NCBI RefSeq assembly: GCF_900111765.1
Contig: NZ_FOIB01000002.1
Coordinates: 310,001-374,000, forward strand
Reading direction: 5' to 3'
DNA from: Myxococcus fulvus
Lineage (GTDB): Bacteria; Myxococcota; Myxococcia; Myxococcales; Myxococcaceae
DNA length: 64,000 nucleotides
Under the pieces are notes generated by a model that had not been told where the DNA came from, did not search any database, and saw only the letters and a list, made by a program, of their open reading frames with translations. Numbering within the stretch: the first letter of the stretch is position 1; each line of letters opens with the position of its first letter. Shown here piece by piece: positions 29,693 through 58,097 of this stretch. The translations under genes were made by a program, and so were the position numbers.

Positions 29693-30916
29693 CTACGGCA
29701 GCTCCGTCTGGCCCTGCCGACGCAGGAACGTGGGGATGTCGAACTGGTCCTCGTCCAGAGGCAGCGCCGACTCCTTCACCACGGACGTGCGGTTGCTGAT
29801 GCTCTTGCTCGACTCCACCGGGGCGAGCGGACGCGGCGCGCTGCCCTTCGCGGGGACCAGGCTGGCCACCTCCTCGCGCGCGCCAATCAGCACCGACTGC
29901 TGCGGCGAACGGGAGAGCGGTACCTGCACCACGGGCGCCACGTTGCGGACCTTGGGCGCATCGCGGTGCACGAAGCCCGTCGCGATGATGGTGATCTTCA
30001 CCTCGTCCTGGATGTTCTCGTCGATGAGCGAGCCGAAGATGATCTCCGCCTCGCTGTCGGCCGCGTCGTGCACCAGGGTCAACGCCTCGTTGACCTCCTG
30101 GAGCGTCATGTCCCGGCCGCCCGTGATGTTGATGAGCAGGCCCGTGGCGCCGTCGATGGAGACATCCTCGAGCAGCGGGCTGGAGATGGCCTGCTGCATG
30201 GCCGTCAGCGCGCGCTTGTCACCGGACGAGTTGCCCGTGCCCATGAGCGCCAGGCCCTTGTCGCTCATGATGGTCTTCACGTCGGCGAAGTCGACGTTGA
30301 TGTAGCCGTGGTACTGGATGAGGTCGCTGATGCCCTGCACGGCGTTCAGCAGCACCTCGTCCGCGCGCTTGAAGGTCTCTAGCAGCGGCATCGGCTCGTT
30401 GGAGAGCGACAGCAGCCGCTGGTTCGGAATCGTGATGAGCGTGTCCACCGCGGCCTTGAGCTCCACGATGCCCTGCTCGGCCTGCTTGCGACGCTTGTTG
30501 CCCTCGAAGAGGAAGGGCTTGGTGACGACGCCCACCGTGAGGCAACCCAGGCTCTTGGCGATGTCCGCGATGATGGGCGCCGCGCCCGTGCCGGTGCCGC
30601 CGCCCATCCCCGCCGTCACGAAGACCATGTCGGCGCCCTCGAGCACCGCGGCAATCTGGTCCCTCGACTCCAGCGCGGCCTCGCGCCCCATCTCCGGATT
30701 GGCGCCGGCGCCCAGACCCTTGGTCAGCGTCTGCCCCAGCTGCAGCCGCGTGGGCGCCTTGCTGGCGGCGAGCGCCTGGATATCGGTGTTGGCGGCGATG
30801 AAGTCCACGCGGTCCAGCTTGGACATGATCATCGTGTTGACCGCGTTGCAGCCTGCCCCACCTGCCCCGACGACCCGAATCTTGGCGGCCTGCTTGTTCT
30901 GATCGAACTGGTCCAT
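29693..30916 (-). CDS. ftsZ: Cell division protein FtsZ
   Basis: The tubulin-like GTPase that polymerises into the Z-ring at mid-cell. The 407 residues show [12 protein letters not shown] (18-27), the tubulin signature GGGTGTG (105-111) and the NxxR-containing core. A variable linker from about 320 follows, then the C-terminal peptide DIPTFLRRQ that binds FtsA and other partners. The ATG at 30916 has AAAGGA 7 bp upstream. Unlike the usual ftsA-ftsZ arrangement, ftsZ is separated from ftsA by a 7.6-kb gene and a strong terminator, and has its own leader of about 300 bp. Confidence 0.98.
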
Positions 30917-31287: not shown

Positions 31288-38850
<7,563 letters not shown>

Positions 38851-39204
38851 AGGGACTGGGGCCGCGCGGTGTAGGGACTGGCCCGTGCGGCAGTGGACGC
38901 CCATAGCAATCCAGGAGCCACACTCCGTCCACTTCCGGTCCACGCCCTGTTTCAGGGGGGTTCACTCGGACGCCCCCCTGCTTTGAGGCCCGTGGATCCG
39001 AATCACGGATCCGGATTCTGGAAACCGGATGACCCACCCCTCACGTCTCCCTCGGGCTGACCCGTCAGCAGCGTGCGGGGTAGTGGCCCTGACACGTCAA
39101 CGCGGAGCACCCCCGCTGACGCACGTCGCCAGAAACGCGACGAGGGGCCCTCCTTCCGGAAGAGCCCCTCGCGTTGCGACAGGACGCGCGTTGCGTCCCA
39201 GGCG
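38851..39204. promoter_or_regulatory. Leader region of the giant gene, with two perfect inverted repeats
   Basis: This 354-bp gap holds no gene. CAGGGGGG (38953-38960) and CCCCCCTG (38973-38980) form an 8-bp inverted repeat. GGATCCG (38994-39000) and CGGATCC (39006-39012) form a 7-bp inverted repeat with a 5-bp spacer. Both lie 100-160 bp upstream of the giant gene's start and are candidate operators or leader structures. The ftsA terminator occupies the far end (39141-39171). I could not identify a convincing -35/-10 pair. Confidence 0.45.
39141..39171 (-). terminator. Terminator after ftsA
   Basis: CGAGGGGC (39141-39148) and GCCCCTCG (39164-39171) form an 8-bp stem with a 15-nt loop, 34 bp past the ftsA stop. 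The minus strand continues with a short TTT. This suggests the long dcw transcript ends here, before the giant gene. Confidence 0.6.
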
Positions 39205-40437
39205 CTAGAAGATTTCCTCGAGCCACTCGCGCATGCGGCCCTTCACCTTCTTGTACACGTTCTCCTCGCGGATGCGGAACATGCGCCGGTCCAGGTGCTT
39301 GGCACCGTAGACGACCAGGCCCACGCCCGTGGCGTACATGGGGCTCTTCACCACGTCCACCAACCCGCCGATGCCGCGCGGCATGCCGCGACGCACGGGC
39401 AACCCGAGCACCTCCTCGGCCAGTTCCGGCATGCCCGCGAGCAGCGTGGAGCCACCCGTAATCACCACGCCGGAAGCGAGCAGGTCCTCGTAGCCGCACT
39501 TCTGGATTTCGCGGTGGACCAGCTGGAAGATCTCCTCCACGCGCGGCTCCAGAATCTCGCAGAGAATCTGGCGGCCGAGCACCCGCGGCTGACGGCCCCC
39601 GACGCTGGGGACCTCGATGGTGTCGTCCTTGTTGATGAGCGACGCCAGCGCGCAGCCGTACTTCTGCTTGATGCGCTCGGCCTCATGCGCGGGCGTGCGC
39701 AGGCCGATGGCGATGTCGCTGGTGAGGTTGTTGCCGCCCAGCGCAATCACCGCCGTGTGCACGATGGAGCCGCCGGAGAAGATGGCGATGTCCGTGGTGC
39801 CGCCGCCGATGTCGACGAGGCACACACCCAGCTCCTTCTCGTCCTCGCCCAGCACCGCCTCGGCGCTCGCCAGGGGCTGCAGGACGATGTCGGAGACATT
39901 CAGGCCCGTGCGGTTGGCGCACTTGACGATGTTCTGCGCGCTGGACACGGCGCCCGTGACGATGTGGACCTTGGCCTCCAGGCGCACGCCCGCCATTCCC
40001 AGGGGCTCCTTGATGCCGCCCTGGTCATCGATGATGAACTCCTGGGGCAGCACGTGGATGACTTCCCGGTCCAGGGGGATGGCCACCGCCTTCGCCGCGT
40101 CGATGACGCGCGCGATGTCCGCCTCCCGGACCTCCTTGTCCTTCACCGCCACGATGCCCTGGGAATTGAAACCCTTGATGTGGCCACCGGCGATGCCCGT
40201 GTAGACGTGGGAAATCTCCGCGCCCGCCATCAGCTCCGCCTCTTCGATTGCGCGGCGGATGGAGGAGACGGTCGCCTCGATGTTGACCACCACGCCCTTG
40301 CGCAACCCCTTCGACGGATGCGTCCCGATACCGATGATGTCGATACCGCTGTCGGTCAGCTCACCGACGATGGCGCAAATCTTCGTCGTGCCGATGTCGA
40401 GGCCGACAATGATCTCCCCCGACTTCTGCTTCGCCAT
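39205..40437 (-). CDS. ftsA: Cell division protein FtsA
   Basis: An actin-like ATPase that tethers FtsZ to the inner membrane. The 410 residues contain the phosphate-1 motif GLDIGTTKICAIVGE, the 1C domain, the phosphate-2 motif VDIGGGTTD, the adenosine motif GVVITGGSTLLAG, and a C-terminal amphipathic helix (VKGRMREWLEEIF) for membrane binding. It lies 44 bp downstream of ftsQ. It is followed by a terminator and the giant surface gene instead of ftsZ. Confidence 0.97.
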   Translation of the reverse strand: MAKQKSGEIIVGLDIGTTKICAIVGELTDSGIDIIGIGTHPSKGLRKGVVVNIEATVSSIRRAIEEAELMAGAEISHVYTGIAGGHIKGFNSQGIVAVKDKEVREADIARVIDAAKAVAIPLDREVIHVLPQEFIIDDQGGIKEPLGMAGVRLEAKVHIVTGAVSSAQNIVKCANRTGLNVSDIVLQPLASAEAVLGEDEKELGVCLVDIGGGTTDIAIFSGGSIVHTAVIALGGNNLTSDIAIGLRTPAHEAERIKQKYGCALASLINKDDTIEVPSVGGRQPRVLGRQILCEILEPRVEEIFQLVHREIQKCGYEDLLASGVVITGGSTLLAGMPELAEEVLGLPVRRGMPRGIGGLVDVVKSPMYATGVGLVVYGAKHLDRRMFRIREENVYKKVKGRMREWLEEIF

Positions 40438-51322: not shown

Positions 51323-52846
<1,524 letters not shown>

Positions 52847-52900: not shown

Positions 52901-54922
52901 TCATTGCCGCGTCGCCATCTCCAGCGTCACCCGGGCCCCCTTCTCCACCAGCGAGCCGGCGGCGGGGGTTTGAGACACCACACGACCACTTCCCAGTACC
53001 TGTGGCTCCAACGCCGCGGCGAGCAGCTTCACCACGGCCTCACGTCCCCCGGCGCCCTGGACGTCCGGCACACGCACCGTGCCGGGCTCAGGGCTCTCCG
53101 AGACCGCTTCCTCCAACGCCGGGCGGGCGGGCTCGACGGCCGCACGGGCCACCGGCTTCGCCGCGACAGGCGCGGGGGACGCGGCGGCCACGGCCGTCCC
53201 GGGTGCCACCGTCCGAGACGGAGGCACGGCCAGGTGGGCCATGGCGGCGGTCGCAATTTCCTTGAAAGCAGGGGCAGCCACGAGCCCCCCGTACACGTCT
53301 GTCTTGGGTTCGTCCACCACCACGAGGATGACGATGCGAGGATCCTCGGCCGGCACCATGCCGACGAAGGAGGCGATACGCTTGTCCGAGTAGCCCCGGG
53401 CCACGGGGTCCGCCTTCTGGGCGGTGCCCGTCTTGCCCGCCACCCGATATTCGTCCATGGCCGCCTTGGGCGCGGTGCCTCCCTTGACCACCACGCTTTC
53501 GAGCATGCCCACCACCTGCCGGGCGACCTTGCTGGACACGACCCGGCGGACCTCCGTGGGACGGTTCTCCAGCAGAACCACCCCGTCCGGGTCCACCACC
53601 TTCGACACCAGGTAGGGGCGCATCATCACGCCATCGTTGGCCAGCGCACCATAGCCGGCGGCAATCTGCACCGCGGTGGCCGTCATGCCCTGGCCGAAGG
53701 ACTGGGTGGCCAGGGACACTTCGGCCTTCGGGAAGGGGATGACGCCCCGGCCCTCGCCGGGCAGCGACAGCCCCGTGCGCTCGGCGAAGCCGAAGGCGTG
53801 GTAGCCGGCGACCATCTTCTCGCGGCCCAGCACCTGGGCGATCTTCGCCATGCAGATGTTGGAGGACACCTGGAGGATGCCCTGCGGCGCCAGCCACCCG
53901 TAGGAGTGGGTGTCGTTGATGGTGTGGCGCCCCACGCGCCAGGCGCCGTTCTCGCAGAAGAAGACGCTCTCGGGGGTAATCGCCTTCTCCTCCAGCGCGG
54001 CGGCCACCACGAAGGGCTTGGTGGTGGAGCCGGGCTCGAAGGTGTCCAGCGCGGCGCGGTTGCGCATGCCGCCGCGGGAGCTGGACTCGGGCGTGTTGGG
54101 GTTGAAGCGCGGGTGGTTGGCCACCGCGAGCAGCTCCCCCGTCTTGGGGTCCAGCGCCACCACCATGCCGGCGACGGCCTTGGCCTCCTCCACCGCCTTG
54201 GCCAGGGCCTTCTCGGCCACGTACTGCAGATGCCGGTCCAGCGTCAGGGTGACGGCGGCGCCCTGGCGCTCCAGGGGGTCGGTGGCGCCCTGCACCAGCA
54301 GCTTGCGGCCCTTGGCGTCACGGAAGCCGGACATGCGCGAGTTCTGCCCGGACAGCTCGTCCTCGAAGGCCTTCTCCAGGCCCTCCAGGCCCTTGCCGTC
54401 CATGCCGACCAGGCCCATCACGTGCGCGCCCAGCTCGCGCTGGGGATAGAAGCGCTTGGGCTCCTTGGTGAAGCCCAGGCCGGGCAGGCCCAGCGCCTTC
54501 ACCGCGGCGACCTCCTGGGGCTTGGCCTGGCGCTTGACCCAGGCGAAGCGCTTGGAGCGGGCCAGGCGCGCGGCCAGCTCGTCCGCGTCCACCTTCAGGG
54601 CCTTGGCCAGCTGCTTCGAGGCCTGGCGCACGTCGGGCAGCATCGACGGGTCCACCCAGACGGAGTCCACCTCCACGCTCTGGGCGAGCGGCGTGCCGCG
54701 CCGGTCGAAGATGTCGCCGCGCCGGGCGGGGATTTCAATCTGGCGGACGTACTGGTCCTGCGCCATGCCGCGCAGCTTCTCCTGCTCGAAGACCTGCAGC
54801 TGCACGGCGCGGGCGAAGGCGACTCCCAGGAGGAGCAGGAAGAGGCCGAACAAGAGCTGCACCCGCAGCTTCAGCCCCTTCGCATTGGGCTCCGGAGCCC
54901 GGGTCGCCTTGAAGTCCCTCAC
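52901..54922 (-). CDS. ftsI: Septal transpeptidase FtsI (PBP3) with a C-terminal PASTA domain
   Basis: The class B penicillin-binding protein that cross-links septal peptidoglycan. The 673 residues have one N-terminal membrane segment (about 22-40), a dimerisation domain starting at ARRGDIFDRRG, and the active-site motifs STTK (299-302), SSN (353-355) and KTG (497-499). A Pro/Ala-rich linker and one PASTA domain (about 605-673) follow; PASTA domains bind muropeptides or beta-lactams and are usual in Gram-positive PBPs. The GTG start overlaps the ftsL stop by 4 bp. Confidence 0.95.
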   Translation of the reverse strand: MRDFKATRAPEPNAKGLKLRVQLLFGLFLLLLGVAFARAVQLQVFEQEKLRGMAQDQYVRQIEIPARRGDIFDRRGTPLAQSVEVDSVWVDPSMLPDVRQASKQLAKALKVDADELAARLARSKRFAWVKRQAKPQEVAAVKALGLPGLGFTKEPKRFYPQRELGAHVMGLVGMDGKGLEGLEKAFEDELSGQNSRMSGFRDAKGRKLLVQGATDPLERQGAAVTLTLDRHLQYVAEKALAKAVEEAKAVAGMVVALDPKTGELLAVANHPRFNPNTPESSSRGGMRNRAALDTFEPGSTTKPFVVAAALEEKAITPESVFFCENGAWRVGRHTINDTHSYGWLAPQGILQVSSNICMAKIAQVLGREKMVAGYHAFGFAERTGLSLPGEGRGVIPFPKAEVSLATQSFGQGMTATAVQIAAGYGALANDGVMMRPYLVSKVVDPDGVVLLENRPTEVRRVVSSKVARQVVGMLESVVVKGGTAPKAAMDEYRVAGKTGTAQKADPVARGYSDKRIASFVGMVPAEDPRIVILVVVDEPKTDVYGGLVAAPAFKEIATAAMAHLAVPPSRTVAPGTAVAAASPAPVAAKPVARAAVEPARPALEEAVSESPEPGTVRVPDVQGAGGREAVVKLLAAALEPQVLGSGRVVSQTPAAGSLVEKGARVTLEMATRQ

Positions 54923-55323
54923 CGGCCCGCGCCTCCACGGCCGGCCACGCGCACGGCGGGCTTGTCGCCCTGGGGAGCCTGGGCGGAGGCGCTGGCGCGC
55001 GAGGGCTTGTCCGCGGACAGCGACACCACCGCGCTGCCGGCGGGCATGCTCATGCCCAGCTGCTCACGCGCGACGCGCTCCAGCCGGCCGGGGGCCTTGA
55101 GCGTGGCCAGCTCCAGCTTGAGCCGGTCGTTCTCCCGCGTCAGCGAGCGGCTCTCGGCCTCCTCGCGCGACAGCCGGTAGCCCATGTCCACCACCATCAC
55201 CCGGCTGGTGACGTGGAGGATGCCCACCGCCGCGAACAGGGTGAACAGGAGGACCGCGGGCAAAAGGTGCAGCAGCACGCCCGCCACCGACACGGAGCCA
55301 CGCTGGGACGACGCCTTGCTCAT
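54919..55323 (-). CDS. ftsL: Cell division protein FtsL
   Basis: The small bitopic divisome protein that with FtsB and FtsQ activates FtsW-FtsI. The 134 residues have a membrane segment (about 13-38) followed by a heptad-like helix ([22 protein letters not shown]) and a REQLGM segment, as in FtsL. The C-terminal tail is Ala/Arg-rich. The ATG overlaps the rsmH stop and the TGA overlaps the ftsI start, so the three are coupled. The assignment rests on position and topology, since FtsL is poorly conserved. Confidence 0.85.
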
Positions 55324-56240
55324 CGCACTTTCTCCACCACGCGCAGGTGCGCGCTCCGAGAGCGGGGGTTGACCTCCACCTCTTCCTCCGAGGCGGACAC
55401 GGCCTTCTTCGTCACCACGCTGAAGTTGCCCAGGCTCTGACAGACGCAGATGGGCAGGCCCGGGGGGCAGGTGCAGCGGCCCTCCAGGGCGCGGAAGGCT
55501 TCCTTCACCTTCCGGTCCTCCAGCGAGTGGAAGGAGATGACGGCGGCGCGCCCGCCCACCTTGAGCAGGCCCGGCAGCGCGGACAAGAGCGCGTCCAGCG
55601 CCTCCAGCTCCTGGTTGACCGCCATGCGCAGCGCCTGGAACGTCCGGGTGGCCACGTGGATGCGGTTGGGCCACGCCTTGCGCGGCACCGCGCGTTTGAC
55701 GACCTCCGCGGCCTCCAGCGTGCGCGTGGGCAGCGCGCGCTTGAGTTCGCGGGCGATGGGCCGGGCGAAGGGCTCCTCGCCGTACTCCTCGAGGATGTGC
55801 TTGAGCTCGCGCTCGTCCAGCGTGGCGATGAGCTCCGCGGCCGTGGGGCCGTCCGGGCCCATGCGCATGTCCAGCGGGCCGTCCTTGTTGAAGGAGAAGC
55901 CGCGCTCGGCCACGTCCAGCTGGGGCGAGGACACGCCCAGGTCCACGAGCACGCCGTCCACCGGCAGCAAATCGCTGGTGACGCGGGGCAGGTCGGCGAA
56001 GTTGCCGGCGCGGCCCTGGAAACGGGGGTTGGGGCCCAGCCGGGAGGTGGCCGCCGCCAGCGCCACCGGGTCGCGGTCCACGCCGACGACGGACGCGCCC
56101 TGGGCCAGGAGCGCCTCCGTGTGGCCACCGCCCCCGAGTGTGCCGTCGATGATCACCTTGCCTGCTCCCGGTCGCAGCAGCTCCACCGCTTCACGCAGCA
56201 GGACGGTGTGGTGCTGGAATTCCAAGGCCCCCACGAGCAC
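55320..56240 (-). CDS. rsmH: 16S rRNA (cytosine-1402-N4) methyltransferase
   Basis: A SAM-dependent enzyme that methylates N4 of C1402 in the ribosomal P site. The 306 residues show [13 protein letters not shown], the SAM motif [37 protein letters not shown] and the late [12 protein letters not shown]. The GTG at 56240 directly follows the TGA of the STAS gene, with no spacer; a second GTG at 56234 is possible. The stop overlaps ftsL by 4 bp. Confidence 0.95.
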
Positions 56241-56627
56241 TCAGACGAAGGGAGCCCGCGCGAGGCCGAAGGCGGCGCGAGCGTCGTTCATGTGCGGGTA
56301 GATTTCGAAGGCGTCGTGCGCGCCGGCCGCCCGGAAGATGGCCGCCAGGTACGGCGACAGGCCGGACAGCTTCAAGTCCCCGCCGGTGCGGCGGAAGGCC
56401 TCCGCGCGGGCCATCAGCGGCTTGACGCCCTTGTAGTTGAGGTGGCCGACCTCGGAGAGGTCCAGCACCACCTGACGCAGGCCCCGGTGCATGCGCTGGG
56501 AGAGCTCGTCGCACAGGGTCAGCAGGTCCTGCTCGCTCAGCTCGCCCTCCAGCATGAGCGTCTCCACGCGCCCGGCACCCGCCAGCGCGCTCGCCGCTCC
56601 TCGCCGCACCTCCAGAACCTGATTCAT
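56241..56627 (-). CDS. STAS-domain protein embedded between mraZ and rsmH
   Basis: The 128-residue protein is a single STAS domain of the anti-sigma-factor-antagonist fold: an ELSEQDLLTLCDEL helix, the strand VVLDLSEV, the segment HLNYKGVKPLM and a final helix. In SpoIIAA-like antagonists the loop carries D-S-S/T-G, with a serine that is phosphorylated. Here the position reads N64-Y65-K66-G67, so the phospho-acceptor is absent. Such degenerate STAS proteins act as binding modules not switched by a serine kinase. The stop abuts the rsmH start and mraZ ends 45 bp upstream, so it belongs to the operon. A STAS gene here is not part of the canonical dcw cluster. Confidence 0.75.
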   Translation of the reverse strand: MNQVLEVRRGAASALAGAGRVETLMLEGELSEQDLLTLCDELSQRMHRGLRQVVLDLSEVGHLNYKGVKPLMARAEAFRRTGGDLKLSGLSPYLAAIFRAAGAHDAFEIYPHMNDARAAFGLARAPFV

Positions 56628-56672
56628 ACGGTGTCACCCTCTGGGGACTTCAGCCCGCTGTCGACTTTCCGG

Positions 56673-57125
56673 CTACGGCTGGCGCAGCTCGGAGAGCACC
56701 TTCATCACGTCCGCGGAGGCCGCCTCCTGGCGGGCCTCTTCCTGGGCCTTCGCCCAACCCTCGCGGCTCCAAAGCTCGATGACCTTCACCATCCCCGCCC
56801 ACACCACGTCCTTCTCCAACCCCGCGTACGTCCGGAGCGACGGTGGGATGAGCAGCCGTCCCAGCCGGTCCAACGGGCACTCCTGGGCGCTGGCCACGTA
56901 CAGGCGCATCAGCGTCTTCACCCCGGGCTCCATGGGATTTCGCCGCGCGAGGGAGGTCTCCAGCGCCTCCCACTCCCGCACCGGATAGGCGTGGAGGCAC
57001 CTGTCCAACGCGGTCGTGACGATGAGCCGCTCGTCGTAGGCCCCCACCAGGGTCTCCCGGAGCTTCGCCGGGAGGCTGGTCCGCCCCTTCGCGTCGATCT
57101 GGTGCTCATAGACGCCTCGGAACAC
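56673..57125 (-). CDS. mraZ: Transcriptional regulator MraZ
   Basis: An AbrB-like DNA-binding protein, first gene of the cluster; in E. coli it represses its own operon. The 150 residues contain two MraZ/SpoVT-like half-domains: [23 protein letters not shown] at the start (residues 2-24 carry the DxKGR motif) and a second [16 protein letters not shown] copy around residue 85. The GTG start at 57125 has AAGGTGG 10 bp upstream. The promoter and three direct repeats lie immediately upstream. Confidence 0.95.
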
Positions 57126-57166: not shown

Positions 57167-57191
57167 CCACTCCTTCCCACTTCTTGCCACT
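57167..57191 (-). promoter_or_regulatory. MraZ box: three AGTGG direct repeats at 10-bp spacing
   Basis: On the minus strand AGTGG occurs at 57191-57187, 57181-57177 and 57171-57167, each exactly one helical turn apart. In E. coli MraZ binds three TGGGN direct repeats separated by 5-nt spacers just downstream of the promoter. The position here, just after the predicted start site and before the mraZ GTG, is the same. Confidence 0.75.
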
Positions 57192-57389: not shown

Positions 57390-58097
57390 GTGAACACGAA
57401 CGTGCGACTGAAGGTGGCCTACAAGAGCCCGCAGTCCCTGGTGGGGGAGTACACGCGCAGCGTGGGTCAAGGCGGCGCCACCCTCCACACGCGGCGCAGC
57501 CTGCCGCTGGGCACCCGTTTCACCTTCGAGCTGCATGCCGGAGGCGCACTGCGTCCGGTGGAGGTGCTGGGCGAGGTGGTGCAGGTGGAGCCGCGCCCGG
57601 AGCGCGACTACCTGCTCACGGTGCGCTACGGCGCCACCGAGGACCGCTCCGCGCTGGACGCGGTGCTCCAGCGCATCTTCGCCGTGCAGGAGAAGGAGGG
57701 GCTGCGCCGCTTCCCCCGGCTGCCCCTGCACCTGCGCGCGGTGGAGGCGACGCCCCTGTCGCCGACCTTCCTGGTGCGGGACATCTCGCGCGGCGGCGTG
57801 GGGCTGGACGTCATGGCGCCCGCCCTGCCCCGCCACGTGCGAGTGGGCACGCCGTTCCTGTTGGAGATGGACCTGACGGGCGGCGCGCTGCTGCTCCACG
57901 GCGAGGTGGTGTGGACCGCGTCCACGCCGCGCAAGAACGCCACCGAGGCGACGCCGGGCTTCGGCGCCACGTTCGGCCGGCTGCGCGCGCCCATGCAGGA
58001 GCGGCTGGACGCGCTGCTGGCCTTGAACTCGTTGCCCCCCGCGCCGTGGAAGGCGCGGGTGAGCTTCGGCATGGACGCTGTGACGCGGATGCCGTGA
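57390..58097 (+). CDS. Tandem PilZ-like domain protein (possible c-di-GMP receptor)
   Basis: The 235-residue cytoplasmic protein has two related beta-barrel domains. The second (about 105-215) has the PilZ c-di-GMP signature: arginines in RRFPR followed by RDISRGGVGL, matching RxxxR and D/NxSxxG. The first (about 1-95) has a TRSVGQGGATL segment of the kind seen in a myxobacterial PilZ-like paralogous family, but no RxxxR, so it probably does not bind the nucleotide. The GTG at 57390 is chosen as the domain boundary. It is divergent from mraZ, so it may share regulation with the division operon. Its end is 13 bp from that of the convergent acyl-CoA dehydrogenase gene. Confidence 0.78.
   Translation: MNTNVRLKVAYKSPQSLVGEYTRSVGQGGATLHTRRSLPLGTRFTFELHAGGALRPVEVLGEVVQVEPRPERDYLLTVRYGATEDRSALDAVLQRIFAVQEKEGLRRFPRLPLHLRAVEATPLSPTFLVRDISRGGVGLDVMAPALPRHVRVGTPFLLEMDLTGGALLLHGEVVWTASTPRKNATEATPGFGATFGRLRAPMQERLDALLALNSLPPAPWKARVSFGMDAVTRMP

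Follow-up and report, generated by a model that had tools for sequence, protein, structure and literature searches.

A STAS-domain protein with an aromatic residue at the former phospho-acceptor site is encoded in the mra operon of the Myxococcia

The window analyzed here is a 64,000-nucleotide stretch of the Myxococcus fulvus genome (contig NZ_FOIB01000002.1, positions 310,001 to 374,000), and the operon genes described below lie on its minus strand. The gene under study, here called mra-STAS (56241-56627), is an open reading frame with an ATG start that encodes a single-domain protein of 128 residues. It follows mraZ, the first gene of the operon (56673-57125; NCBIfam PRK00326.3-4, 192 bits), across a 45-bp spacer without a terminator-like site (56628-56672), and precedes rsmH (mraW; 55320-56240; Methyltransf_5 at 331.6 bits and RsmH TIGR00006 at 302 bits), an ftsL-like gene (54919-55323; DivIC E = 1.5e-7, FtsL E = 8.1e-6), ftsI, encoding the division transpeptidase with a PASTA domain (52901-54922), and murE. 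A first-pass annotation of the DNA had described a 128-residue STAS frame between mraZ and rsmH, which the reading frame and Pfam matches above the curated cut-offs bear out, and had placed it against rsmH with no spacer. The latter depends on the start codon of rsmH: the candidates are GTG 56240, GTG 56234, and TTG 56225, the spacer is zero only with the first of these, and the conserved part of RsmH in relatives begins ∼8 to 30 bp past the STAS stop codon. The mraZ-STAS spacer contains a conserved GGAAAGTCGACAG in Myxococcus and Pyxidicoccus, GGAAGTCGACAG in its place in Corallococcus, and a conserved TTTCTCGACGG in Hyalangium and its relatives. Divergent from mraZ is a PilZ-domain gene (57390-58097, plus strand, E = 3.8e-14).

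Upstream of mraZ lies an array resembling MraZ boxes (GTGG-N6-GTGG-N6-GTGG; 57167-57190, minus strand), matched once in the window against 0.05 expected. Of 129 loci, 66 carry the exact array ahead of mraZ, some of them in families without mra-STAS, versus 0.00016 per sequence in a control of single-base shuffles; the Corallococcus loci are without the exact array. In its arrangement it resembles published MraZ operators, whose direct repeats share a GTG core (in Mollicutes, AAAGTG[T/G]) (PMC8475190), and it places the operon, judged by sequence, in the MraZ regulon. MraZ has been described as an autoregulator of the cluster (PMC9395523; PMC8475190, with reference to Eraso 2014). No sigma-70 promoter or terminator was found within the mraZ-STAS-rsmH stretch, and no RNA families were found between positions 52000 and 60000 of the window. 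Given the upstream array and the lack of a terminator-like site between the genes, mraZ, mra-STAS, and rsmH are likely co-transcribed under MraZ control.

Both profile scores and fold assign mra-STAS to the STAS superfamily (PF01740/PF13466): Pfam STAS scores 45.0 bits against a cut-off of 22.6 (E = 1e-11) and STAS_2 45.0 bits against 29.2 (E = 1.3e-11). The AlphaFold model adopts a STAS fold with a mean pLDDT of 76, rising to ∼83 to 92 over residues 21 to 110, while the N-terminal 18 residues are of low confidence. The closest structural matches are RsbS (Z 13.1), RsbV, SpoIIAA, and SLC26 STAS domains, and a fold in common with RsbS, RsbV, and SpoIIAA is no proof of a common function. Like SpoIIAA and RsbV (TIGR00377), which are single-domain STAS proteins of ∼100 to 120 residues, mra-STAS consists of one domain of the same fold (1tid_B, Foldseek E = 6.4e-6; 6m36_D, Z = 12.1). 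Unlike them, it has a tyrosine (Tyr65) where the class carries its Ser/Thr phospho-acceptor in the β3-α2 loop, it is located in the dcw cluster, and it adjoins neither a cognate HATPase_c_2 anti-sigma kinase gene, as is found beside members of the class, nor a sigma factor gene; its scores are 34.6 bits for TIGR00377 (cut-off 53.45) and 19.3 bits for the SpoIIAA model (cut-off 114.75).

The top structural match is the stressosome protein RsbS (6jhk_B, Z = 13.1, rmsd 2.2 over 97 residues). RsbS keeps a phosphorylated serine and sits with RsbR and RsbT, unlike mra-STAS, which carries N-Y-K-G in the loop and has mraZ, rsmH, ftsL, and ftsI as neighbors; a separate stressosome-like module with Thr/Ser loops is present in the window's genome. 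MlaB of the MlaFEDB lipid transporter is a STAS protein permanently paired with an ABC ATPase, and it matches mra-STAS weakly in sequence (NCBIfam mlaB_1, 20.5 bits against a cut-off of 90), but the neighbors of mra-STAS are dcw rather than mla genes. SypA from Vibrio fischeri is likewise a single-domain STAS protein outside a known sigma pathway, and its S56A variant is active (PMC4517449); unlike mra-STAS, SypA keeps its serine and is controlled by SypE.

The codons of the former phospho-acceptor loop (H62-L-N-Y65-K-G67) occupy 56427-56444 on the minus strand and place Tyr65 at the position of SpoIIAA Ser58. Residues N64-Y65-K66-G67, the NYKG loop noted at first pass, align with D-S58-S-G of SpoIIAA (F-M-D-S58-S-G) in the HMMER alignment. 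Among 103 distinct positional homologs, many of them close relatives, the Ser58 slot is occupied by Tyr in 93, Phe in 6, Arg in 2, His in 1, and Ser in 1, so that an aromatic residue is found in 99 of 103. Such an occupancy supports the earlier proposal that mra-STAS would be non-switchable by Ser/Thr phosphorylation, and the ability of Phe to replace Tyr argues that the function conserved here is other than tyrosine phosphorylation. The Arg and His loops belong to two divergent families (f5 and f18, see below). Within the window's genome the tyrosine is peculiar to mra-STAS, as Thr, Ser, or Asp fills this slot in the other STAS domains read. An ortholog with an intact serine beside an anti-sigma kinase gene, which would speak for ordinary partner switching, was sought; the sole serine-bearing homolog (L125:3272-3514, plus strand, loop H-L-D-S-A-G) has no kinase among the adjoining genes read, which are an M1 peptidase gene, mraZ, and rsmH, and a second genome of its genus (L209) has Tyr at the site. 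His62 is kept in 102 of 103 homologs and, with Tyr65, Tyr93, Gly82, and Gly83, is near-invariant; Tyr93, an alanine in SpoIIAA, starts the next helix after the loop in the AlphaFold model. We suggest that His62, Tyr65, and Tyr93 form one remodeled binding face.

The gene holds a conserved place in the dcw/mra cluster across a clade. An ortholog was detected in 93 of 94 Myxococcaceae genomes and in 83 of 83 good assemblies, the exception being an assembly (G091) that is 85% complete and in which MraZ is likewise undetectable. Over the Myxococcota, the mra-STAS profile matched in 133 of 174 genomes, a count that includes a few canonical D-S-S-G proteins encoded elsewhere in the genome (for example in G107, and as second matches in G035 and G037). 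The order mraZ-STAS-rsmH was found in every syntenic locus read, in the Myxococcaceae as well as in further families of their order and class, and conservation of position, proposed as a check at first pass, thus holds. All ten families of the class Myxococcia (f1-f10) have mra-STAS, including f5, where the profile missed a divergent STAS protein at the same place (STAS_2 E = 5.9e-6, just under the cut-off). Outside the class, f17 has mra-STAS (E = 9e-22) and f18 a very divergent copy (Pfam STAS, 32 to 33 bits). The other Myxococcota families read have either an mraZ-rsmH gap of 0 to 250 bp without a STAS-like frame or no mraZ match beside rsmH, in agreement with the view that the gene is foreign to the standard cluster; as many families do without it, mra-STAS is dispensable for division as such. 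One record with a Myxococcus-like mra operon (L033, BNCN01000001.1) is titled Comamonas sp. KCTC 72670; by this operon it is a Myxococcus relative, and the assembly is probably mislabeled.

Within the Myxococcaceae, dN/dS (NG86) is 0.14 to 0.40 for mra-STAS, 0.18 to 0.35 for rsmH, and 0.03 to 0.16 for mraZ, the absolute values being rough because codon bias lowers dS; mra-STAS is under purifying selection similar to that on rsmH. The term degenerate, applied to the protein at first pass, therefore suits the phospho-site and not the rest, where the fold is intact and selection is purifying. Of the four genes compared, mra-STAS evolves fastest (mean distance 1.15 versus 0.55 to 0.70 for its neighbors), a pace unusual for a core division component. 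Its distances correlate with those of the neighbors (0.79 to 0.89), consistent with vertical inheritance, and the partial correlations with MraZ (0.37), RsmH (0.34), and FtsI (0.37) are equal and so point to no particular partner. The suggested tie to division or to MraZ is accordingly upheld by position beside mraZ and rsmH, in the class and two further families, but not by covariation. A Rosetta-stone search found no fusion of STAS to MraZ or RsmH; a joint frame at L141 was rejected as it runs through Ns.

Although an aromatic residue has taken the place of the switch residue in nearly all copies of mra-STAS, the gene has held its position throughout the class. We favor, at a probability of roughly 0.55, that the mra/dcw operon of the Myxococcia includes, in mra-STAS, a STAS adaptor fixed in one state. 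In SpoIIAA, the serine loop is the docking site on the kinase. Co-transcription with mraZ and rsmH would keep the amount of mra-STAS proportional to the division cluster, and the kinase-docking surface of SpoIIAA and RsbV may have been rebuilt around His62, Tyr65, and Tyr93 into a face that would bind some other protein permanently, so that the amount of mra-STAS rather than its phosphorylation would set its effect. This other partner is probably division-linked. The likeliest candidate, which we name tentatively and at odds somewhat against, would be MraZ, with the STAS protein modulating the autoregulator encoded next to it; MraZ is put first on adjacency and shared regulation only, and RsmH or the cytoplasmic part of FtsL or FtsI would come next. 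More specifically, a non-switching STAS protein might directly bind MraZ or a divisome protein and, as a regulator particular to this clade, set the expression of the division and cell-wall (dcw) genes by dosage, a reading we regard as doubtful. Were it true, mra-STAS would be a dedicated MraZ co-regulator, and we know of no example of this class of factor.

Three other readings were weighed against the adaptor. Very unlikely, in our estimate, is an anti-sigma factor antagonist locked in an active, unphosphorylated-like state that sequesters an RsbW/SpoIIAB-like kinase encoded elsewhere and thereby frees a sigma factor. Its appeal lies in the fold, in the best structural matches (RsbS, RsbV, and SpoIIAA), and in SypA S56A, which shows that a non-phosphorylatable STAS protein can be constitutively active (PMC4517449). 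The window region itself gave no HATPase_c_2 match, and a possible source of kinases is a stressosome-like module on another contig of the same genome (G000:C9:455554-458268), which comprises two STAS and two small HATPase_c_2 proteins; those kinases, however, have Thr/Ser STAS proteins of their own, and mra-STAS scores below the TIGR00377 cut-off. Reduced genomes weigh further against a locked antagonist. In five of these (G082, G083, G084, G144, and G145; 2.1 to 2.9 Mb), mra-STAS is the single Pfam STAS match, and in the first four, no small RsbW/SpoIIAB-like HATPase_c_2 protein was detected: all matches fall in frames of at least 445 residues at E values of 1e-5 or weaker, and so fit histidine kinases. 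G145 has one 194-residue frame with a weak match (2.3e-6). The five assemblies are 88 to 99% complete, and the failure to detect a kinase carries most weight in G083 (99%) and G084 (94%); it argues against an RsbW/SpoIIAB-like kinase as the conserved partner of mra-STAS.

We consider unlikely a role of mra-STAS outside division, in which it would modulate RsmH or ribosome maturation and owe its place beside rsmH to that. In each syntenic locus read, rsmH is the next gene after STAS, often within 8 to 30 bp, a closeness that allows translational coupling, and the partial correlation with RsmH is as high as that with MraZ. Nevertheless, RsmH acts by itself in other bacteria, those Myxococcota families that lack the STAS gene retain rsmH, and no protein fusing the two was found. 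Finally, operon inertia alone can preserve position: mra-STAS may descend from a partner-switching protein whose kinase was lost, may now have a weak or redundant role, and may owe its lasting place solely to the rarity of rearrangements in the operon. The rapid evolution of the protein, its loss or original absence in many families, and the drift of the loop to Arg or His in f5 and f18 speak for this reading. We nonetheless judge it quite unlikely, given dN/dS values far below 1, retention in every good Myxococcaceae assembly and in 2.1 to 2.9 Mb genomes without another detectable STAS protein, and the near-invariance of the two glycines and of the residues of the putative binding face.

The mra-STAS protein is a natural case in which the STAS fold is kept and the phospho-switch dropped over a whole class, showing what this fold may do without its kinase. 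The trigger of MraZ activity has been called an open question (PMC9395523), and a protein whose gene directly follows mraZ and shares its MraZ boxes, as that of mra-STAS does, makes an obvious candidate to test. In the open literature searched, we found no description combining mraZ, a STAS domain, and Myxococcus, and no mention of MXAN_5609-5614, a guessed tag range; judged by titles and abstracts, publications on mraZ with Myxococcus xanthus included none on the mra cluster. Elsewhere in the dcw cluster, between ftsA (39205-40437) and ftsZ (29693-30916), the window encodes a 2551-residue protein (31288-38943, minus strand) that carries some ten bacterial Ig-like domains together with TSP3 repeats and, at its C terminus, an OmpA domain.
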